Source: Oscillospiraceae bacterium (lineage in GTDB: Bacteria; Bacillota; Clostridia; Oscillospirales; Ruminococcaceae). Taken from it: a DNA stretch of 46,124 bases. Shown in pieces: positions 2,053 through 43,592 of this stretch. A program made the translations under genes and the position numbers. The stretch lies in assembly GCA_009783695.1 (NCBI GenBank), contig WRCY01000014.1, positions 1 through 46,124 of the forward strand. Direction: 5' to 3'. How positions within the stretch are numbered: position 1 is the stretch's first letter; each line of letters starts with the position of its first letter. The notes beneath the pieces were generated by a model, which had not been told where the DNA came from, searched no databases, and worked only from the letters and a program-made list of their open reading frames with translations.

Positions 2053-4299
2053 ATGAAAAATTCTAATTTTGAAAAAGCCGCAGAGGCGTTCCGTGACGCC
2101 TGCATTAAAGGTGTCGGTCTGCCGCCTTATGACGAGCAAATCAAGGCGGCATTTGCGCTTTATAACGGCAAAGTAATTGAAATGAAAACCGGCGAGGGCA
2201 AGACTATATCAGCGGTAATGGCGGCGTATCTGCATTTTTTAGATAATCGTAAGGTGCATATTCTGACATATAACGATTATCTTGTAAAGCGCGATTATAA
2301 CTGGATGAAGCCGATATACGACCTGCTCGGCATGAAAATCGCCTATATAGTCGAGTCGACGCCTAAGGCTGAGCGCAAAGCAGCTTACCGCGCCGATATA
2401 GTCTATAACACCGCAAAAGAATCCGGCTTTGATTTTCTTAGGGATTTTGTCTGCGACAAACCTGAGGATGTATTGCATGATAAGTTCGATGTCGCCATTG
2501 TTGACGAAGCGGACAGTATTTTAATAGACGAGGCGCGGATTCCGCTTGTAATTGCGGGAAGTGTGCCTGCGGATACTTTCGCCGGGCTCGAAAAGGCGCA
2601 TGAGTTCGTGAAAACACTGACTGAAAAAGACTACGGGATTTCCGATGAGCTCGACAACGCCTATCTCACTGACAGAGGCATTGAAAAAGCCGAGAAATTT
2701 TTCGGTGTCAACCTATATGACGAGGAGAGCCGGTCGCTGCTCTCGGATATAAACGACTGTCTTAACGCAAATTTTGCTCTCAAAGAAGATATTAATTATA
2801 TTGTTAAAGATAATCAGGTATTAATAATTGATGAGTTTACCGGCAGGGCGGCGTTAAACCGCCGCTTCCCGGGGGCCCTGCAGGGCGCGGTAGAGCTCAA
2901 GCACGGCATAAAAGCCGGGCAGCGCGGTATTGTGATGGGTACCGTTCCGCTTCAGTATTTCATGCGGCAGTACGAGCATCTTTCGGGAATGACGGGCACA
3001 GTTTATCCGTCTGACGAGGAGTTCGAGCTGCTTTACGGCTTAAAATCAGAAAAAATCCCGCCGCACGTACCCTCCCGCAGAACCGACCATCCGATGGAAA
3101 TATATTTCAATAACAAAATAAAACTCGCCGCCGTGAAGCAGGAGATAATCCGCGCACATAAAAAAAACCAGCCTGTTTTAGTAGGCGCGGAGAGTATAGA
3201 AGAAAGCATAAAGCTCGCGGCAGAGCTTCAAAAAGAGGGAATAGAAGCAGCCGTTTTAAACGCCAAGAATAACGAGGCGGAAGCAGAGATAATCAAAAAC
3301 GCGGGAGCGGCCGGAGCCGTTACAATTTCCACGAGCATGGCGGGGCGCGGCGTTGACATTCTGCTCGGAGGGGCATCCTCCTCAAACGAAAAGAGCAGGG
3401 AAGCTGCCGCAGAAGCGGGCGGATTATATGTAATCTGTACGTCAATGCGCGAAAGCTCGCGGATAAACCGTCAGCTGCGCGGCAGGGCGGGGCGGCAGGG
3501 TGACGTGGGAGAGAGCAAGGCATATACTGCGCTTGATGACGAAATAATGATTAAATACGAGCTCGAAAAACTGATTCCGAAAAACCGCTACCCAAAATTC
3601 ACGGAAGACAGAATTACCGAAAGGGCAGTCGTAAAGGAAGCAGGGCGAATCCAGCGCATTTCCGAGGGTGACAGGCTTGACGAGCGTAAGCGGCTGCTAA
3701 AGTTTTCGATGATTTCCGAGAAGCACAGGGACGCTATTTTCAAGGCGCGTAAAAAATACGTAACGGGCGAGAGCGAGCCGTCATTTTGGCAGGAGTCAAG
3801 CGCCGCAGCACATAGCATTGGTATCTCTCCATACGATGAAGCAGTAAATAAATTCGGCAGGGAAGCCGTAAATAATCTACAGCGCGAACTGGTTCTCAGC
3901 GTGATTAATGGGGCGTGGAGCGATTATCTGGATTACACATCGTCGCTGCGCGAGGGGATTCACCTAACAAGCGTAGGCGGGAAGAATCCTGTCGAGGAGT
4001 TCAACATAACAAGCCAGAAATATTATGAAAGCATGGAGGAGCAGGTACTCGGCGAAATGGAGCAGGGCCTTGAAAAACTGCTCATGCTCAACAAAATAGA
4101 AGATTTTATTATCAGCAAACCCGAAAGCGTCTACACCTATTTGCAGAATGAAAGCGCGGACGAGCTCGTAAAGAAGCCGATTCTTCTCAAGTTTGTCGAC
4201 GATACAAAGCTCATTGATGATGAAGACGATGATACCTCTGCAGTTTTAGAAACAGAAAAACCAAAGAAAAAAAGCTTTTTCGGGAGGCTCTTTTCGTAA
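2053..4299 (+). CDS. secA2: SecA-family preprotein translocase ATPase, short SecA2-like form
   Basis: SecA drives export of preproteins through SecYEG using ATP. From the ATG at 2053 the product is 748 residues. It shows Walker A GEGKT (47-51), Walker B/DEAD (151-154), LSGMTGTV, STSMAGRGVDI and the RQLRGRAGRQGD motif VI, so both nucleotide-binding folds are present. It is shorter than housekeeping SecA (about 800-900): about 60 N-terminal residues are missing and there is no C-terminal Cys/His zinc tail, the end being basic (KPKKKSFFGRLFS). This suggests an accessory SecA2 rather than the main SecA. No Shine-Dalgarno precedes 2053; an in-frame TTG at 1987 would lie upstream of the promoter. 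The stop overlaps the next frame by one base. Confidence 0.85.
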   Translation: MKNSNFEKAAEAFRDACIKGVGLPPYDEQIKAAFALYNGKVIEMKTGEGKTISAVMAAYLHFLDNRKVHILTYNDYLVKRDYNWMKPIYDLLGMKIAYIVESTPKAERKAAYRADIVYNTAKESGFDFLRDFVCDKPEDVLHDKFDVAIVDEADSILIDEARIPLVIAGSVPADTFAGLEKAHEFVKTLTEKDYGISDELDNAYLTDRGIEKAEKFFGVNLYDEESRSLLSDINDCLNANFALKEDINYIVKDNQVLIIDEFTGRAALNRRFPGALQGAVELKHGIKAGQRGIVMGTVPLQYFMRQYEHLSGMTGTVYPSDEEFELLYGLKSEKIPPHVPSRRTDHPMEIYFNNKIKLAAVKQEIIRAHKKNQPVLVGAESIEESIKLAAELQKEGIEAAVLNAKNNEAEAEIIKNAGAAGAVTISTSMAGRGVDILLGGASSSNEKSREAAAEAGGLYVICTSMRESSRINRQLRGRAGRQGDVGESKAYTALDDEIMIKYELEKLIPKNRYPKFTEDRITERAVVKEAGRIQRISEGDRLDERKRLLKFSMISEKHRDAIFKARKKYVTGESEPSFWQESSAAAHSIGISPYDEAVNKFGREAVNNLQRELVLSVINGAWSDYLDYTSSLREGIHLTSVGGKNPVEEFNITSQKYYESMEEQVLGEMEQGLEKLLMLNKIEDFIISKPESVYTYLQNESADELVKKPILLKFVDDTKLIDDEDDDTSAVLETEKPKKKSFFGRLFS

Positions 4300-4325
4300 T
4301 GGCATACAAAGGACTTAATGAAAAT

Positions 4326-5681
4326 ATGAATACAATTGCGGCTGTTGCAACCCCGCGCGGAACAGGCGGACTCGCGGTAATCCGTATATCGGGCGGGGAA
4401 GCCGCTGATGTGGCGCGCAAGGTCTTCCGTGCCGCCGGCGGTAACGAAATCGGGAAGTCGCACGTTGCTGTTTACGGTAATATTTTCGATGGCGGCGAAA
4501 AGCTCGACGATGGTGTCATGACGCTTTTTCTCGCGCCGAACAGCTACACGGGCGAAGACGTCGCGGAAATAACCTGTCACGGCGGAATTTATGTTACCGA
4601 GCGGGTTTTGCGCGCCTGTATTAGTGCGGGTGCACGTCTTGCCGGGGCAGGAGAGTTCACAAAACGCGCCCTGCTGAACGGTAAGCTCTCGCTTACGCAG
4701 GCAGAGTCTGTAATAGATATAATCAATTCGCATAACAAACAGTACCTAACATACTCCCTGGCACAGCGCGAGGGCGCACTTTACCGCAAAATCGAGGAGA
4801 TTTCCGCGATTATTCTCGACATAACAGTGCAAATCGCCGCATGGATTGACTACCCGGACGAGATACTCGACAGCTATGAAACAAGCTCGTTTTTAGGGCA
4901 GCTCGCCGACTGCAAAGCTAAACTGCAGTTGCTGCTCGAAACCTTTGAAATAGGTAAAGTGCTGCGCGAGGGTGTGCTGACTGCAATAGTCGGAAAGCCT
5001 AATGCCGGCAAATCTACGCTCATGAACCTGCTCGCTAAAAGCGACCGCAGCATCGTCACTGACATCGCAGGAACCACACGCGATATTATTGAAGAGAGCG
5101 TGAACATTGGCGATATGGTTCTGCGGCTCTGCGACTGCGCGGGGCTCCGAGATTCGGGGGACAAAGTCGAAGAAATAGGCGTAAATATAATGCTGAAACG
5201 CCTTGAGCAGTGCGAGCTTGCGCTGGCTGTATTCGATAATTCGTGCCCGCTCGAAAAGGAAGACTACACGCTGCTTGAGAAACTTAAAGGCAAAAATGCG
5301 ATTTGTATAATAAATAAAGCCGATTTAGAAAACCAGCTGGATTTAACATTTCTTGCAACGCAGTTCCGCAACGTGATTGAAATCACGGCGAAGGATTCAT
5401 CGTCGTTCGAGCCTTTAGCGGCGGTGATTAATAAAACTCTCAAACTTAAACGCGTGGATATGTCGGCGGGTTTCATCGCCAACGAGCGGCAGAGGGAATG
5501 TGCGCTTATCGCTGAAAGAGCCCTCGGAAAGGCAATCGACGGCATTACGGCGGGGCTGGCGCTCGACACGCTCGGCGTAACGCTCGAGAGCGCGCTTGAA
5601 AGTTTGTACGAGCTTTCGGGTAAAAATGTAAGCGAAACAGTAGTAGACGAAATTTTTAAAAGATTCTGTGTGGGGAAATAG
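4326..5681 (+). CDS. mnmE: tRNA modification GTPase MnmE
   Basis: With MnmG, MnmE modifies U34 of several tRNAs (cmnm5U) using methylene-THF and GTP. Visible are the N-terminal folate-binding domain beginning NTIAAVATPRGTGGLAVIRI, a helical region, an inserted G domain (P-loop GKPNAGKST, DIAGTTRD, DCAGLR in place of the usual DTAGLR, INKAD), and the C-terminal FCVGK whose cysteine is essential in the family. Length (451 residues) is normal. I chose the ATG at 4326 because family members begin there; an ATG at 4299 would add nine residues that merely translate the leader sequence AAAGGACTTAATG. An ATG-AAA-ATA-TGA micro-ORF overlaps this start. It follows secA2 and is far from the usual jag/mnmG context. 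Confidence 0.95.
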   Translation: MNTIAAVATPRGTGGLAVIRISGGEAADVARKVFRAAGGNEIGKSHVAVYGNIFDGGEKLDDGVMTLFLAPNSYTGEDVAEITCHGGIYVTERVLRACISAGARLAGAGEFTKRALLNGKLSLTQAESVIDIINSHNKQYLTYSLAQREGALYRKIEEISAIILDITVQIAAWIDYPDEILDSYETSSFLGQLADCKAKLQLLLETFEIGKVLREGVLTAIVGKPNAGKSTLMNLLAKSDRSIVTDIAGTTRDIIEESVNIGDMVLRLCDCAGLRDSGDKVEEIGVNIMLKRLEQCELALAVFDNSCPLEKEDYTLLEKLKGKNAICIINKADLENQLDLTFLATQFRNVIEITAKDSSSFEPLAAVINKTLKLKRVDMSAGFIANERQRECALIAERALGKAIDGITAGLALDTLGVTLESALESLYELSGKNVSETVVDEIFKRFCVGK

Positions 5682-7254: not shown

Positions 7255-7497
7255 ATTTTCATTAAGTCCTTTCTTCACCAATGAGGAATTGAAAAGTTTC
7301 GTTTTCCCCGATTCAGTTATATTTATTTTCAAACATATTTTTATTAAGTCCTTTCTTCATCAACGGGGAATAAAAAGTTTCGTTTTCCCCGTTTTTATGT
7401 CAGTTTTTTCAAATATATTTTTATTAAGTCCTTTCTTCACCAATGAGGAATGAAAGGTCTCGTTTTCCCCGATTCAGTTATATTTATTTTCAAACTT
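7255..7497 (-). repeat. Three tandem leader repeats upstream of the beta-lactamase-like gene
   Basis: Three copies of about 80 bp (about 7255-7335, 7336-7412, 7413-7497). Each reads, on the minus strand, TTTGAAAATAAA, AACTGAATCGGGGAAAACG, a TTTTC-containing loop region, then GAAGAAAGGACTTAAT. The middle copy has a different stem with a perfect 9-bp pairing (AACGGGGAA/TTCCCCGTT at 7362-7370 and 7385-7393). Between the middle and proximal copies lies the 7-codon ORF MFENKYN (7313-7336). This accounts for most of the gene-free 7255-7695 stretch. Confidence 0.9.
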
Positions 7498-37761: not shown

Positions 37762-37941
37762 GCACACTGCTCTGAATACGAACTGTAACATACAAATCTT
37801 TGAGAATCTTTAAAGCCGCAGGGATACTGCGTGCCGGGGCTCTCGACCCGAGCACACTGCTCTGAATACGAACTGTAACATACAAATCTTTGAGAATCTT
37901 TAAATCCGCAGAGATATTGCGTGTCGGGGCTCTCGACTCGA
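37762..37941 (-). repeat. Tandem 90-bp repeat downstream of tRNA-Pro
   Basis: Two copies (37762-37851, 37852-37941) differ at only five positions, all in the half nearer the tRNA. On the minus strand each has GTCGAGAGCCCCG, a CGCAG/CTGCG-type hairpin, ATTCTCAAAGATTTGTATG and TTCAGAGCAGTGTG. The array runs from the tRNA 3' end to the terminator, so it would be transcribed with the tRNA. The 30-codon period keeps one frame open, but no start or ribosome site supports translation. Confidence 0.9.
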
Positions 37942-38011
37942 GGCGACAGGACTCGAACCTGCGGCATCTTGGTCCCAAACCAAGCACTCTACCAAACTGA
38001 GCTACGCCTCG
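37938..38011 (-). tRNA. tRNA-Pro (anticodon UGG)
   Basis: Acceptor CGAGGCG/CGCCTCG; anticodon stem CTTGG/CCAAG with loop TTTGGGA, giving TGG; T-arm GGTTCGAGTCC. CCA not encoded. Followed by the 90-bp tandem repeat. Confidence 0.96.
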
Positions 38012-38171: not shown

Positions 38172-38447
38172 ATGGAAACCTCGACCTTTAAGCTTTTATG
38201 TGAAGCTTCGCAGCTCTCTTTCACCGATGATGAAGCAGCAGGCTTCAGGGAGCGGCTGGATTCATTGATTGAGTTCGCCGACATTAAAAGTATTAGCTGT
38301 GATATGAGCAGCGCTATTGAGATGAACAGCGTTTCGCTCGGTGATTTGCGTGAGGATACAGCTTTGCCCTCCCTCCCGCCGGAGAAGCTGCTCGCCAATA
38401 CGGAGCCGCTTTTCGACTGTTACGTAATCCCAAAAATGATGGAATGA
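38172..38447 (+). CDS. gatC: Asp/Glu-tRNA amidotransferase subunit C
   Basis: GatC wraps around GatA and GatB and stabilises the complex. The 91 residues start with ATG 38172 after AGGAGG and show FTDDEAAGFRERLDSLIEFAD and the C-terminal LREDTALPSLPPEKLLANTEP...VIPKMME pattern (two conserved blocks), typical of the family. First gene of gatC-gatA-gatB. No degeneration is visible. Confidence 0.92.
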   Translation: METSTFKLLCEASQLSFTDDEAAGFRERLDSLIEFADIKSISCDMSSAIEMNSVSLGDLREDTALPSLPPEKLLANTEPLFDCYVIPKMME

Positions 38448-38529
38448 AGACTAAAATTAATAATAAAATCTGACGCTTTGGTATATGAATTTCCATGGCT
38501 CGTATATGCCGGAAAGGAATAGTGACAAT

Positions 38530-39903
38530 ATGTTTGACATAATGCAAGAAACAGTAAAAAGCCTGCGTACGCGGCTCGACCGCCGCGAAATCAGCGCGCA
38601 GGAGCTTTGCGCCGAGTTTTTGGAAGTATCGCATGCTATGAACCCCGACTTAAAGGCTCTCGCTCTCATCACGGACGACGAGGCACTCGCAGCTGCTAAA
38701 AAAGCGCAGTTGTGCATTGACAAGGGCAGCAGCGGCGCGCTTACGGGAATCCCCGCCGCCGTGAACGACAACATCATGACCGAGGGCATAATCACCGCCT
38801 GCGGCTCAAAAATGCTTGCCGGTTTTATCCCGCCTTATGACGCGGGAGTTATCGAACTGCTTAAAAATGCAGGCTGTGTGCTGCTCGGAAAGGCGGCTAT
38901 AGATGAATTCAGCCTCGGCGGCTCGCCGCGGTCGGGTGTGGCGGTAAGCTCGGGCTTTGCGCCGTATTCGCTCGGTACTGATACAGGCGGCGCAATTCGC
39001 CGTGCCGCGGCTTTCTACGGGCTGACGGGGCTTCGTCCCACTTACGGGCGGATTTCTCGCTATGGATTGGCGGCTTTCGCAAGCTCGCTTGACCAAATCG
39101 GGCCGATTGCTAAGACTGCTGAGGATTGTGCTATTATATTAAACACGATTTCTGCTCGCGATGAGCGCGACGCGACCTCTTTCGGTAATCCCGACAGTGA
39201 AGATTTTACCTCCGGAATCAATAAAGGCGTTAAGGGGCTTAGAATCGCCGTTCCTAAAGAGTTTTTCAGCGATAATGTATCCGATGAAGTTAAAGCCGCA
39301 GTCCTTGAAGCCGCGAAAACGCTTGAAAAGCAAGGCGCGGAATTAACTGATATTTCTGTTGAGATGACCGAATATGCCGCACAGGTTTTCTGCATAATCG
39401 GGAGCGCGGAAGCCGCAAGCAACCTTGCGCGCTACGACGGCGTAAACTTCGGGCTGCGCGGCGAGGGCGCGGGTTACGCCGAGCAGATTGTTGACTCGCG
39501 TAACAGGGGCTTCGGAAGCGAGGTAAAGCGCAGAATCATGTTCGGAAATTTTGTGCTTTCGGGCGAGAATTACAACGATTATTTTATGAAAGCCCATGTG
39601 CTTCGCAGCAAAATCAAAGCTGAATATGATGAAATTTTCAAAAATGCCGATATTATTTTAACCCCGACAGTTTCCGATTTGTCCGAGAAGGATATATCAA
39701 CAAAGCGGCATCTTGCGGACTTTTGCACAGTTTCAGCGAGTCTTGCGGGTCTGCCGTGCGTGACGACCACCTGCGGCTACAGAGCAAACGGGCTTCCCGT
39801 CGGTATGTCGCTCACGGGCAGGAAGTGCGGGGAAGCTGTGATTCTGCAGGCGGCAGACTGCTTTGAGCGTATATTCAGCCCTGAATTATTTGGACAGTTT
39901 TAA
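38530..39903 (+). CDS. gatA: GatA homologue lacking the whole amidase catalytic triad
   Basis: GatA normally hydrolyses glutamine and passes ammonia to GatB. This 457-residue homologue is clearly GatA (YDAGVIELLKNAG, RPTYGRISRYGLAAFASSL, DQIGPIAKTAEDC, SEVKRRIMFGNFVLS). The catalytic Lys of VKDN is Asn79; the GGSSGGS loop with the cis-Ser is absent within a gap of about 23 residues between GGSPRSG and YSLGTDTGG; and the nucleophile Ser of DTGGSIR is Ala155. The frame is intact to a normal C-terminus. ATG 38530 begins the conserved part (MFDIMQETV), with AAAGGA upstream; an ATG at 38485 is possible. It is probably a structural pseudoenzyme or a new function. Confidence 0.9.
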   Translation: MFDIMQETVKSLRTRLDRREISAQELCAEFLEVSHAMNPDLKALALITDDEALAAAKKAQLCIDKGSSGALTGIPAAVNDNIMTEGIITACGSKMLAGFIPPYDAGVIELLKNAGCVLLGKAAIDEFSLGGSPRSGVAVSSGFAPYSLGTDTGGAIRRAAAFYGLTGLRPTYGRISRYGLAAFASSLDQIGPIAKTAEDCAIILNTISARDERDATSFGNPDSEDFTSGINKGVKGLRIAVPKEFFSDNVSDEVKAAVLEAAKTLEKQGAELTDISVEMTEYAAQVFCIIGSAEAASNLARYDGVNFGLRGEGAGYAEQIVDSRNRGFGSEVKRRIMFGNFVLSGENYNDYFMKAHVLRSKIKAEYDEIFKNADIILTPTVSDLSEKDISTKRHLADFCTVSASLAGLPCVTTTCGYRANGLPVGMSLTGRKCGEAVILQAADCFERIFSPELFGQF

Positions 39904-39977
39904 GGAAAACAAATATAAACTAATCGGGAAAACGTTGCTTTATTTCTCTCTTAGTGAAGAAAGGACTTAATGAAAAT
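39904..39977 (+). repeat. Leader repeat, gatB copy
   Basis: ACTAATCGGGAAAACG, TTTATTTCTCTCTTAGTG, then AAGAAAGGACTTAATGAAAAT and the gatB ATG. ACTAA pairs with TTAGT, and GGGA with TCTC. The micro-ORF ATG-AAA-ATA-TGA (39970-39981) overlaps the gatB start. Confidence 0.8.
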
Positions 39978-41414
39978 ATGAAATTGATTCCGACCATCGG
40001 ACTTGAAATACATGCGGAGCTTATGACTGCTTCCAAAGTTTTCTGTTCCTGCTCCGCCGAATTCGGCGGCAGCCCGAACAGCCGTTGCTGCGCGGGGTGC
40101 TCGGCGTTCCCGGGAACGCTGCCGATGTTGAACAAAAAAGCTGTCGAGCTTATAATTAAAGCGGGGGCGGTGATGAACTGCGAGATTGCCCCCCTTACAA
40201 GCTGGGACAGGAAGAATTACTTCTACCCCGACCTGCCCAAAGCTTATCAGATTTCGCAGTTTAATGCGCCTGTTTGCACGAACGGAAGCGTTGAAACGGA
40301 CGGTAAAAAGGTTCGTATTAAACAGATTCATCTTGAGGAAGACGCGGGAAAGTTAATCCATGACCAGTCCTCGAAATACAGTCTCGCCGACTATAACCGC
40401 GGCGGAATGTGCCTTATTGAAATCGTTACCGAGCCGGATATGCATACAGCAGAGGAAGCTTGCGCTTTTGTTGAGAAAATCCGCTCCATGCTTCAATATG
40501 CAGACGTGTGCAGCGGCAGGATGGAGCAGGGCGCGCTTCGCTGTGATGTTAATATTTCGCTCGCTCCCGAAGGCGCGCCACTCGGCGTCCGCGCTGAAAT
40601 CAAGAACCTTAATTCCGTGCGTTCGATTGCGCGGGCGATTGAACACGAGATATACCGTCAGACCGAGGCGATTCAAAATAATCAGCCATTAGTACAGCAA
40701 ACGCGGCGTTTTAATGACGCGACGGGCGAAACCTACGCAATGCGAACCAAGGAAAACGCCCATGACTACCGCTATTTCCCCGACCCGGATATACCTGCGC
40801 TTGTGCTGACGGACAGCGAGATTAAAGCCATTATCGCGACTATTCCCGAGATGCCCGAGAAGCGTTATGCGCGGTACACAGACGAGTACGGCATTACCGC
40901 CGGCGATGCGGAAATTCTCACTGCAAACAAAGTTTTAAGTAATTTCTTTGAATCTGCGCTGAAAGAATATAACAATCCTAAAGCCGTCTGCGCATTCACA
41001 CTGACCGAGCTTCTGCGCCGTGTGAATCTCGGCGAAATAGAGCTTGATTCGCTTCCCTTCTCTGCCGCCGATTTCGGGCTGTTAATTAAATATGGCTATA
41101 CAGATAAAATAAACCGCGGCGATATGAAAGACGTTCTGCGAGCTATGATAGACCGGCGAGCCGCCGGCGGCAGTATTTCATCTTCACCCAAAGACATCTG
41201 CGATGAAATGGGCTTGTTCATCAGCGAGGATTTAGGACTTGTCGAGAGCGTAATTGACGAGGTAATCAAAAACAACCCGAACCCTGTTGCGCAGTACCGC
41301 GCGGGCGAGCAGAAAGTTTTCGGCTTCCTTATGGGACAGGCAAGCAAAGAACTGAAAGGTAAGGCAACCCCGGCGATTATAAAGGAAACGCTGGAGAAAA
41401 AATTGAAAGTGTAA
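39978..41414 (+). CDS. gatB: Asp/Glu-tRNA amidotransferase subunit B
   Basis: GatB phosphorylates tRNA-bound Glu (or Asp) and joins ammonia to it. The 478 residues look fully functional: IGLEIHAEL, the zinc-site cysteines (VFCSC and RCCAGC), IHLEEDAGKLIHD, LRCDVNISLA, RYFPDPDIPAL and the YqeY-like tail domain for tRNA binding (VFGFLMGQASKELKGKATP). ATG 39978 is used; an upstream TTG/ATG would only translate the leader. Its integrity contrasts with the altered gatA. Confidence 0.95.
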   Translation: MKLIPTIGLEIHAELMTASKVFCSCSAEFGGSPNSRCCAGCSAFPGTLPMLNKKAVELIIKAGAVMNCEIAPLTSWDRKNYFYPDLPKAYQISQFNAPVCTNGSVETDGKKVRIKQIHLEEDAGKLIHDQSSKYSLADYNRGGMCLIEIVTEPDMHTAEEACAFVEKIRSMLQYADVCSGRMEQGALRCDVNISLAPEGAPLGVRAEIKNLNSVRSIARAIEHEIYRQTEAIQNNQPLVQQTRRFNDATGETYAMRTKENAHDYRYFPDPDIPALVLTDSEIKAIIATIPEMPEKRYARYTDEYGITAGDAEILTANKVLSNFFESALKEYNNPKAVCAFTLTELLRRVNLGEIELDSLPFSAADFGLLIKYGYTDKINRGDMKDVLRAMIDRRAAGGSISSSPKDICDEMGLFISEDLGLVESVIDEVIKNNPNPVAQYRAGEQKVFGFLMGQASKELKGKATPAIIKETLEKKLKV

Positions 41415-41416
41415 CC

Positions 41417-41800
41417 ATGAAAAACGATAATAAAATTTCATCAACTTTATCGTTAATATTCGGAATAATAACCTTACTCAGTTTGATTTCATCTGCTTTA
41501 TATGTCATCATCGCATTATCAAATGCAGATTTAAGCACATCAGACGATTTAGGTGTATTCTATATATTTTATATATTATTCGGAATCTTTATTTTTGACT
41601 TATTAGCAGAGCTCTTTGTTATAATTTCAACCGCCATGCTTATAGCCGCTATAGGTTTTCCTTTCAGTGTTGCCGGTACTGTACTGGGTATAATAGCAAT
41701 TATAAAAAAACCGACAGGGAAGGCTATTGCAGGTTTATTATTATCGGCAGGTTATATTTTGCTCTCAATAATTTTAATCATTTTAGGTTTATTAGCTTGA
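41417..41800 (+). CDS. Small DUF4190-like membrane protein
   Basis: A 127-residue protein of mostly hydrophobic segments: SLIFGIITLLSLISSALYVII, then a short acidic loop (DLSTSDDLG), a second block of two helices, and FSVAGTVLGIIAIIKKPTGK, the type of pattern seen in DUF4190 proteins. It starts 2 bp after gatB and precedes aspS. Codon use is more AT-rich than in its neighbours. Function unknown. Confidence 0.75.
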   Translation: MKNDNKISSTLSLIFGIITLLSLISSALYVIIALSNADLSTSDDLGVFYIFYILFGIFIFDLLAELFVIISTAMLIAAIGFPFSVAGTVLGIIAIIKKPTGKAIAGLLLSAGYILLSIILIILGLLA

Positions 41801-41837: not shown

Positions 41838-43592
41838 ATGCAATTCACTGCTAACAAATACCGCACACACACCACCGCCATGCTCTGCGAAAATAACATC
41901 GGGGAGAGCGTCCGCACCTCCGGTTGGGTAGAAAACATCCGCGACCACGGCGGAATCCTGTTCGTGGATTTGCGCGACCATTACGGCGTTGTTCAGATTA
42001 CGTTTCAGGACAGTGCAAAACTGCTCGACGGGATTCACCGCGAGTGCTGCGTCAGTATCGGCGGCGAGGTAATCAAGCGCGCCGAGGAAACCGTCAACAA
42101 AAAAATCATCACGGGTACTATTGAAATCAAAGCGAAAACCTTGGAAATCCTTGGAAATATCAGCGAGAACCTGCCTTTTGAAATCACCGACTCCAAATCA
42201 ACCAACGAGGAGCTTCGTCTGCGTTACCGCTTTTTGGATTTGCGTAACTGCGACGTGCATAAGGCAATTGTTTACCGCAGCGAGGTTATTTCATATATGC
42301 GGCAAATTATGAACGAAATGGGATTTTTGGAGCTCAATACGCCGGTATTATCGGCTTCTTCGCCCGAGGGCGCGCGGGACTTCCTTGTGCCGAGCAGACG
42401 GCATCACGGCAAGTTCTATGCGCTTCCGCAGGCGCCGCAAATTTTCAAGCAGCTGTACATGATAAGCGGGTTTGACCGCTATTTTCAGATTGCTCCCTGC
42501 TTCCGTGACGAGGACGCCCGCGCTGACCGCACGGCGGGCGAGTTTTATCAGCTTGATATGGAGATGGCGTTTGCCGAGCAGGATGACGTCTTCAATGCAG
42601 GTGAGGAAGTGCTCGGCAAGACGCTCGAAAAGTTTAATATTACTGCTAACCCCGCCCCTTATCCGCGCTTGACCTACGCGGAAGCTATGCTCAAGTACGG
42701 CACGGACAAGCCGGATTTACGTAATCCGCTGTTTATAATAGAGCTGTCGGATTTGTTCGCCGGCAGCGACTTTAAGCCGTTCGCAGGCAAGACAGTCCGC
42801 GGTATACGCGTGCCCGGCATGGCGGCGAAGTCCAAGTCTTTCTTCAAGAGCATGGAGGAGTTCGCGCTGTCCATCGGAATGGGCGGGCTCGGCTATGTTG
42901 AGGTTCAGGAAGACACGAGCTTTAAGGGGCCGATTGATAAATTCATAACTGATGAAGTGCGCACGGAGCTTAAAACCCGAGCGGAATTGCAGCCCGGCGA
43001 TGTATTGTATTTTATTGCAGATACCGCAAAAAACGCCGCGAGTTATTCGGGACAGATTCGAGTTGAACTCGGTAATCGGCTTGAACTTATTGACAGTAAA
43101 CGTTTTGAAATCTGTTGGATTTATGACTTCCCTATGTACGAGGAGGACGAGCACGGCAAGCCCATGTTTTCTCACAATCCGTTCTCGATGCCGCAGGGCG
43201 GGCTTGAAACTCTCTCCGGCGACCCGTTTAAAGTACTCGCTTACCAGTACGACGTGGTGATTAACGGCGTGGAGCTCGCTTCCGGTGCGGTACGTAACCA
43301 CAGCAACGAAATCATGGTCAAAGCTTTTGAAATATCGGGTTACACTGAAGAAGACCTAAAGAGCCGTTTCGGCGCGCTCTACGGCGCGTTCAAGTTCGGA
43401 GCGCCTCCGCACGCGGGCATGGCTTACGGCGTGGACAGGCTTCTCATGCTTATGCTCGGCGAGGACAGCGTGCGGGAGGTTATCGCGTTCCCCCTCAACG
43501 GCAACGCGCAGGATTTACTGCTCGGCGCGCCGTTGGAGGTGACGGAGCAGCAGCTTCGTGACGTGCATATAAAGGTTAGGGAGAGGCATTAA
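41838..43592 (+). CDS. aspS: Aspartyl-tRNA synthetase
   Basis: Class IIb synthetase of 584 residues, the bacterial length with the GAD insertion domain: N-terminal OB fold (RTSGWVENIRDHGGILFVDLRD), motif 2 region FQIAPCFRDEDARADRTAGEF, QLDMEMAF, and motif 3 YGVDRLLMLMLGEDSVREVIAF. Whether it discriminates tRNA-Asp from tRNA-Asn cannot be read here; this matters because gatCAB is adjacent. AAAAGGAC precedes ATG 41838. Confidence 0.96.
   Translation: MQFTANKYRTHTTAMLCENNIGESVRTSGWVENIRDHGGILFVDLRDHYGVVQITFQDSAKLLDGIHRECCVSIGGEVIKRAEETVNKKIITGTIEIKAKTLEILGNISENLPFEITDSKSTNEELRLRYRFLDLRNCDVHKAIVYRSEVISYMRQIMNEMGFLELNTPVLSASSPEGARDFLVPSRRHHGKFYALPQAPQIFKQLYMISGFDRYFQIAPCFRDEDARADRTAGEFYQLDMEMAFAEQDDVFNAGEEVLGKTLEKFNITANPAPYPRLTYAEAMLKYGTDKPDLRNPLFIIELSDLFAGSDFKPFAGKTVRGIRVPGMAAKSKSFFKSMEEFALSIGMGGLGYVEVQEDTSFKGPIDKFITDEVRTELKTRAELQPGDVLYFIADTAKNAASYSGQIRVELGNRLELIDSKRFEICWIYDFPMYEEDEHGKPMFSHNPFSMPQGGLETLSGDPFKVLAYQYDVVINGVELASGAVRNHSNEIMVKAFEISGYTEEDLKSRFGALYGAFKFGAPPHAGMAYGVDRLLMLMLGEDSVREVIAFPLNGNAQDLLLGAPLEVTEQQLRDVHIKVRERH

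Follow-up and report, generated by a model that had tools for sequence, protein, structure and literature searches.

A GatA subunit that has lost its glutaminase triad in a gatCAB-aspS operon, and a second clade of short GatA proteins in the same Clostridia order

Can a GatCAB amidotransferase still make Asn-tRNA once the glutaminase centre of its GatA subunit has gone? GatA is a Class III glutaminase with a Ser-cisSer-Lys catalytic triad, and this activity, channel-coupled to GatB, is regarded as one of the features that define GatCAB. The question is raised by an operon in the window, our term for the whole analysed stretch of 46,124 nucleotides, which is contig C14 of an Oscillospiraceae draft genome, G000 (2.23 Mb, 94% complete, 0.85% contamination). 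The gatA gene of this operon had been predicted, from the sequence, to encode a protein that lacks all three triad positions.

The lesion in GatA

Alignment with Staphylococcus aureus GatA (2df4_A) bore out each part of the predicted lesion. The position of Lys79 is Asn79 (AAC) in the window protein, and that of the nucleophile, Ser178, is Ala155 (GCA). S. aureus residues ~135-157, which include GGSSGGS and cis-Ser154, are missing; the deletion is 23 residues long and equals the offset between 178 and 155. The open reading frame (ORF; 38485-39903, forward strand) has no internal stop, and the ATG at 38530 agrees with the start of the closest relatives. Pfam, NCBIfam and phmmer matches all break at the lesion, and the score against the GatA equivalog model TIGR00132 is 415.6 bits, below the cut-off of 481.1. 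The protein nonetheless has the amidase-signature fold, which a predicted structure keeps, and is GatA by ancestry.

The identical 23-residue gap is found in the window, G012 (80% identical), G023 (80%), contig L106 (62%) and G020 (57%). At the Lys79 position these five window-type proteins have N, N, S, S and T, where 26/26 intact relatives have K. A scan of genome contigs, covering the best 80 of 327 GatA relatives, returned at least three window-type contigs (L105, which is G012 sequence, L106, and L107, which is G020 sequence). We reject an assembly error because the window shares the gap and the two types of substitution with four other genomes or contigs, and the isolates behind these sequences carry at least three different names. 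Frameshift is likewise rejected: the five genomes or contigs, at 55 to 80% identity, have none. Contig L106 is 99.8 kb long and is filed under an actinobacterial metagenome-assembled genome; it carries a window-type gatCAB operon.

Comparison of the five window-type proteins with the 26 intact ones locates the damage. Fifteen columns that are identical in every intact protein are altered in 5/5 window-type proteins: Lys79, eight in the lost loop (their numbers, counted across the gap, are approximate), Ala159, Ser178, Pro182, Cys186, Lys192 and Ala408. Since 13 of these 15 are Lys79, Ser178, the loop columns or the nearby 159, 182 and 186, the damage is concentrated at the glutaminase site. 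Another 48 columns identical in 26/26 intact proteins, Arg358 included, are unchanged in all five. The triad residues do not reappear elsewhere in the protein.

The intact set had begun as 29 loci; nine failed a strict motif pattern, six of them were recovered, and G043, G049 and G056 remain outside the tree. In that tree the five window-type GatA proteins form one clade (100/100). Beside it stand the intact GatA proteins of G006, G010 and G021, three genomes of the same genus (92/79, an unstarred branch), and the clade is nested in a 26-row set that is of the same genus except for contig L106 (99/98). By this placement, window-type gatA reads as an altered orthologue and not as an old paralogue. 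In a census of ordinary GatA, all three exact motifs are present at 71 of 77 loci (L108 to L184, among the best 80 of 327). Five of the six misses were inspected: the loop reads GGSSGGA in L130 and GGSSGGV in L144, while in L147, L157 and L162 the Lys is still there, within KDA, KDI and KDL, respectively; the sixth is L167. The GatA of G037, a candidate for a defective protein by its broken Pfam match, was rejected, with Lys, GGSSSGS and Ser all present.

In close window-type pairs the ratio of nonsynonymous to synonymous substitution rates (dN/dS) of gatA is near 0.1 over the whole gene, and gatB is likewise under purifying selection. Clade-wide loss, purifying selection and the fold kept in the model support the earlier suggestion that GatA is selected as a scaffold without glutaminase activity.

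The operon and the genomes that carry it

The features of the operon are collected in Table 1. The original prediction that gatB and gatC look intact holds for gatB, whose product scores over the cut-off for PF02934 and PF02637 (the catalytic and YqeY-type domains, respectively) and for the NCBIfam GatB model and matches 3h0l_B with E 1e-120. It does not hold in the same way for gatC, which is poorly conserved and weakly recognizable: its product has no Pfam match, and its PDB matches are GatC chains alone, both weak (3h0l_C, E 0.016; 2df4_C, E 0.61). In contig L106, an ORF of similar length lies 5ʹ of gatA.

Table 1. Coordinates of the gatCAB-aspS operon in the window, with the sites of the GatA lesion and the loci of the short GatA clade
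Feature	Position	Strand	Basis
gatC, 91 aa, divergent	38172..38447	+	ORF; weak GatC-chain matches in PDB
gatA, glutaminase triad lost	38530..39903	+	ORF open from 38485, 457 aa from ATG 38530
codon 79 AAC = Asn (catalytic Lys79 position)	38764..38766	+	alignment with 2df4_A and relatives
junction of 23-residue deletion, Arg134/Ser135	38929..38934	+	identical gap in 5/5 window-type proteins
codon 155 GCA = Ala (nucleophile Ser178 position)	38992..38994	+	A in 5/5 window-type, S in 26/26 intact
gatB, transamidase/kinase subunit, intact	39978..41414	+	ORF open from 39954; PF02934, PF02637; 3h0l_B
127-aa ORF between gatB and aspS	41417..41800	+	ORF
aspS, after gatB, one small ORF between	41838..43592	+	PRK00476, 739 bits
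short GatA clade loci	L215-L227, L077, L080, L082

The aspS gene is one of two aspartyl-tRNA synthetase (AspRS) genes found in G000, the second being on contig C52. The two products are distinguished by an RDHGG versus RDKGG motif, presumably a marker of AspRS type, and the window gene probably encodes the non-discriminating enzyme of the two. The window contains no tRNA-Asn gene.

Is there another route to Asn-tRNA in these genomes? A gene for glutaminyl-tRNA synthetase (GlnRS), one of the things to be looked for after the prediction, is present over the cut-off in G000, G012, G020 and G023. In the same four genomes neither asparaginyl-tRNA synthetase (AsnRS) nor the glutamine-dependent asparagine synthetase AsnB is found over the cut-off (AsnA was not searched). 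AsnB is over the cut-off in 5/6 other same-genus genomes searched; the one without it is G412, whose GatA is unassigned as to type, being suspected of the window type by score and left out of the counts. The presence of glnS and the absence of asnS and asnB make the finding sharper. In G000 the window gatA is the sole PF01425 locus found, so a normal second gatA was rejected there, and in G012 and G023 the defective copy is again the only one found. The proposal of a paralogue beside a normal copy therefore fails for these three genomes as assembled; G020 does have an intact copy as well. In G020, gatB and aspS stand at the start of a different contig from the defective gatA, and the two contigs are probably contiguous. 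Because no AsnRS, AsnB or intact gatA was found, this complex is apparently the sole route to Asn-tRNA in G000, G012 and G023, within the limits of drafts that are 94%, 87% and 97% complete, respectively; the product of the three gaps is 2e-4, if they are independent.

Other arrangements of these genes occur in the set. G008, G032 and G001 have a second gatB without an adjoining gatA (L088:3043-4449, L090:3013-4449 and L089 near 2938-4341, respectively), together with another gatCAB and with AsnRS and GlnRS over the cut-off. In G010, gatA lies directly 5ʹ of aspS with no gatB between them (L071:584-3821), and the sole gatB match is on another contig.

Three repeats were seen in the window. The 16-mer TGAAGAAAGGACTTAA has 11 copies at up to two mismatches (0.02 expected by chance), at 7262, 7344, 7424, 19895, 30173, 33840, 39955 and four more positions. 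Several copies lie just 5ʹ of ORFs, including gatB, and the element resembles a repeated leader that includes an extended ribosome-binding site. The GTG at 39954 that opens the gatB ORF falls within this element, and the gatB start is probably the ATG at 39978. A 90-bp unit in two copies (94% matches) occupies 37762-37942 and reaches a tRNA-Pro gene. Tandem repeats of 36 bp and 126 bp (63-428) cover the start of an ORF at 106-924, whose repeat unit is, by eye, collagen-like Gly-X-Y.

A second clade, with a short GatA

When 394 genomes of the order were searched with a profile, 16 gave a short GatA of ~390 aa with scores of at least 378 bits; the best score after these was 287. With G027 added, the short-type set comprises 17 genomes; G040 was excluded (a 293-aa remnant, with AsnRS over the cut-off). 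In 398 genomes of the phylum, only G712 outside the order scores similarly; its short operon has an intact GatCAB after it, and it is not among the 17. Short GatA proteins form a separate clade that includes G712 (17 rows, 100/97). They are without the N-terminal part, have Asp at the Lys position in the four aligned, have GGSSGGS in 0/16 (G160 being left out of the row list), and differ at the nucleophile position, which is Ser in part of the set and Ala or Thr in the remainder. The structure prediction described above covers the window protein and no short-type sequence. The gene order, where read, is aspS-gatC-gatA-gatB; in G059 and G389 the 3ʹ end of aspS is joined to gatC in one fused gene, and the operon of G046 is split over two contigs. 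AsnRS is over the cut-off in 0/17 short-type genomes and GlnRS in 14/17 (not in G027, G045 and G217). In G045 another gatA, whose two parts lie on separate contigs, contains all three motifs. The short gatA of G160 contains a stop, leaving an ORF of 330 aa, which may reflect either a pseudogene or a fault in the assembly; this gene is included in the 17 and is absent from the tree. A suspected stop in the G186 gene was rejected, being the end codon of an open ORF.

A distinct asparaginase-like gene adjoins the operon in 9/17 short-type genomes: directly 3ʹ of gatB in G046, G059, G389, G237 and G186; 5ʹ of aspS in G331, G298 and G160; and, in G177, ~1.8 kb 3ʹ of gatB with one opposite-strand ORF between. 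By comparison, 29 other genomes of the 60 in the set match PF00710, and in none of these 29 does the match lie on the same contig as gatB and within 10 kb of it (for G017, G050 and G055 there is no gatB match). The subfamily, taken at 148 bits or more, is present in 13/17 short-type genomes, 0/4 window-type genomes and 1/39 other genomes searched. Among these 39 the single carrier is G049, in which the end of AspRS is again GatC-like. The dividing line was chosen once the scores were known, with 57 to 73 bits in the window clade and 148 to 532 in the 13 carriers.

In the PDB, the profile of the subfamily hits both asparaginases and archaeal GatD, the third-best match being GatD over its full length (1zq1_A, E 2e-27). 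The linked proteins keep the Thr and Thr-Asp motifs. Where four ordinary relatives have Lys, 7/7 aligned linked proteins have Gln, which makes catalysis by the linked proteins uncertain.

Sources of nitrogen for the amidation step

What, then, supplies the nitrogen? The parts of GatA that release ammonia from glutamine are lost, so the Asn-tRNA step in the window clade probably runs on ammonia from elsewhere. We lean towards an AspRS-associated GatCAB whose GatA has lost its glutaminase and is kept structurally, with free ammonia as the simplest nitrogen source. GatA would hold GatB and GatC and probably wall the ammonia path, which the missing active-site loop perhaps opens. The adjacent AspRS would charge tRNA-Asn with Asp; GatB, to judge from its intact domains, would use ATP to activate the Asp side chain and then amidate it. 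The ammonia would not come from GatA and would most simply be cellular free NH3/NH4+. Gain of GlnRS may have freed the complex from Gln-tRNA synthesis and made the loss of the glutaminase possible; the nearest intact GatA proteins (G006, G010 and G021) are from genomes with GlnRS and without AsnRS over the cut-off.

These enzymes are known to accept free ammonia: yeast GatFAB has been assayed with 20 mM NH4Cl, and a truncation that disturbed the GatA site raised NH4Cl-dependent activity (PMC4027206). Window-type genomes are from uncultured bacteria, some of them apparently from termite guts. The isolate names are Pal332_bin19 (Oscillospiraceae) for L105, Th196P3bin75 for L107 and Nt197P3bin111 for L106; the last is filed as Promicromonosporaceae, a family that its genes do not suggest, and is probably misbinned. 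Th196 and Nt197 have been used for the humus feeders Termes hospes and Neocapritermes taracua, and P3 for a hindgut compartment (PMC4660790); the isolate codes presumably refer to these samples. In one study, the guts of the termite species examined, from several feeding guilds, contained 68.7 to 899.6 µmol ammonia per g dry weight (PMC4675541).

Several observations weigh against a GatCAB that has simply become a scaffold fed by free ammonia. Arg358 (5/5 window-type proteins) and D425 (4/5), which we take to be glutamine-binding residues, persist, and a pure scaffold does not need them. G020 has an intact gatA and a second gatB on a third contig, and an intact gatA or asnS could be missing from drafts that are 87 to 97% complete. 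Defective GatA is associated with the presence of GlnRS and absence of AsnRS among 36 genomes of the genus (4/9 versus 1/27 others, the one being G027), with a p value of 0.009 that ignores kinship; in G016 and G017 gatA found no match, and the other gatA genes were read in part. G006, G010 and G021 have this gene set (AsnB was not searched there) and keep the triad, so the set does not force the loss. More distant gatA pairs have dN/dS of 0.11 to 0.18, with one pair undefined. Furthermore, gatA diverges faster than gatB: the protein divergence ratio is 1.4 to 1.9 in six full window-clade pairs, towards the high end of the range in 40 of 276 intact pairs (0.8 to 2.3). Kinship is ignored, too, in the association of the asparaginase-like subfamily with short GatA (13/17 versus 1/43; Fisher p = 6e-9), as it is after removal of the seven genomes that were the source of the profile (6/10 versus 1/43; p = 6e-5).

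That association favours a different supply, in which another dedicated amidase, an asparaginase or glutaminase, docks and provides ammonia, as GatD does for GatE in archaea. With the subfamily beside the operon in about half of the short-type genomes and its profile matching GatD, this is the leading idea for the short-GatA clade. For the window operon it is the main rival to free ammonia, and we consider it unlikely there. The subfamily is absent from the window clade, where a candidate would be unlinked: in G000 no asparaginase-family gene stands beside the operon, the PF00710 locus being on contig C50, and the clade's ordinary asparaginase, of a kind widespread in the genus, lies off the gatB contig. 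Even in the short-GatA clade, 4/17 genomes are without the subfamily, and the Lys to Gln change makes activity doubtful.

Alternatively, the complex could be a decaying leftover, with Asn-tRNA supplied by an AsnRS, or by an intact GatCAB, that the drafts do not contain. AsnRS is over the cut-off in 24/60 genomes of the set, and the intact gatA of G020, which has a gatB of its own on another contig, and the somewhat faster evolution of gatA fit this idea. We give it little credence, as dN/dS is low over the whole gene in the close pairs, the five genomes or contigs show no frameshift, and neither a second gatA nor an AsnRS over the cut-off was found in G000, G012 or G023.

A new glutamine-hydrolysing centre in GatA, formed in evolution from other pocket residues, is more improbable still. 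The retained Arg358 and D425 are compatible with such a centre, as are Ser135 and Ser140, conserved in the loop remnant; against it, Lys, cis-Ser and nucleophile were lost along with the loop. Ser135 corresponds to S. aureus Ser158, a residue found in ordinary GatA too, so no new candidate nucleophile stands out. Finally, loss of the ammonia-producing centre would also suit a complex that binds Asp-tRNA-Asn and AspRS without amidation, Asn codons being partly read as Asp, and we all but dismiss this since GatB is intact over both domains and under purifying selection and proteome-wide reading of Asn as Asp would hardly be tolerable.

Taking both clades together, we tentatively suggest, at rather less than even confidence, that the GatA glutaminase has been abandoned at least twice in one Clostridia order, each time in an AspRS-linked complex that is apparently the sole route to Asn-tRNA: in favour of free ammonia in the window clade, and of a hybrid with a GatD-like member of the asparaginase family in the short-GatA clade.

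How do these complexes compare with known systems? To our knowledge, the known members of the Asn-transamidosome all have an active GatA. The window operon resembles that assembly of AspRS, tRNA-Asn and GatCAB (4wj3, 3kfu) in its gene content, with aspS after gatB and one small ORF between. From the GatCAB of S. aureus (2df4) and Aquifex aeolicus (3h0l) the window complex differs by the loss of three catalytic GatA positions and a 23-residue loop. In archaeal GatDE, GatE is a relative of GatB, and GatD, of the asparaginase family, supplies ammonia in the absence of GatC and GatA. The short-GatA clade with its asparaginase-like protein resembles GatDE; the window clade, with no such protein linked, does not. 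NAD synthetases use ammonia or glutamine according to whether a glutaminase domain is present or absent (PMC3376133), whereas in the window the GatA subunit is kept and its catalytic centre removed. Clostridium acetobutylicum has duplicated GatCAB and AspRS, with GatCAB thought to serve Asn (PMC4206432); G000 likewise has more than one AspRS. The same survey validated active sites against known enzymes in 547 genera, found 98 with GlnRS and GatCAB and no AsnRS, and reported AsnA solely in organisms with AsnRS; the passages of it consulted do not mention a defective GatA (PMC4206432). We found no published natural glutaminase-dead GatA, nor a partnership of GatCAB with an asparaginase, in a search that left most subscription literature outside.

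What would such a complex mean? A clade that keeps the subunit without its chemistry would show that the GatA scaffold is needed for itself, and an essential step of translation would be tied to free ammonia or to a new partner. Such enzymes would be natural examples of channelling uncoupled from glutamine hydrolysis. For these organisms, the presence of gatA would wrongly be taken to imply glutamine-dependent Asn synthesis. The asparaginase-like protein that co-occurs with short GatA offers a direct test case for subunit replacement between GatCAB and GatDE.
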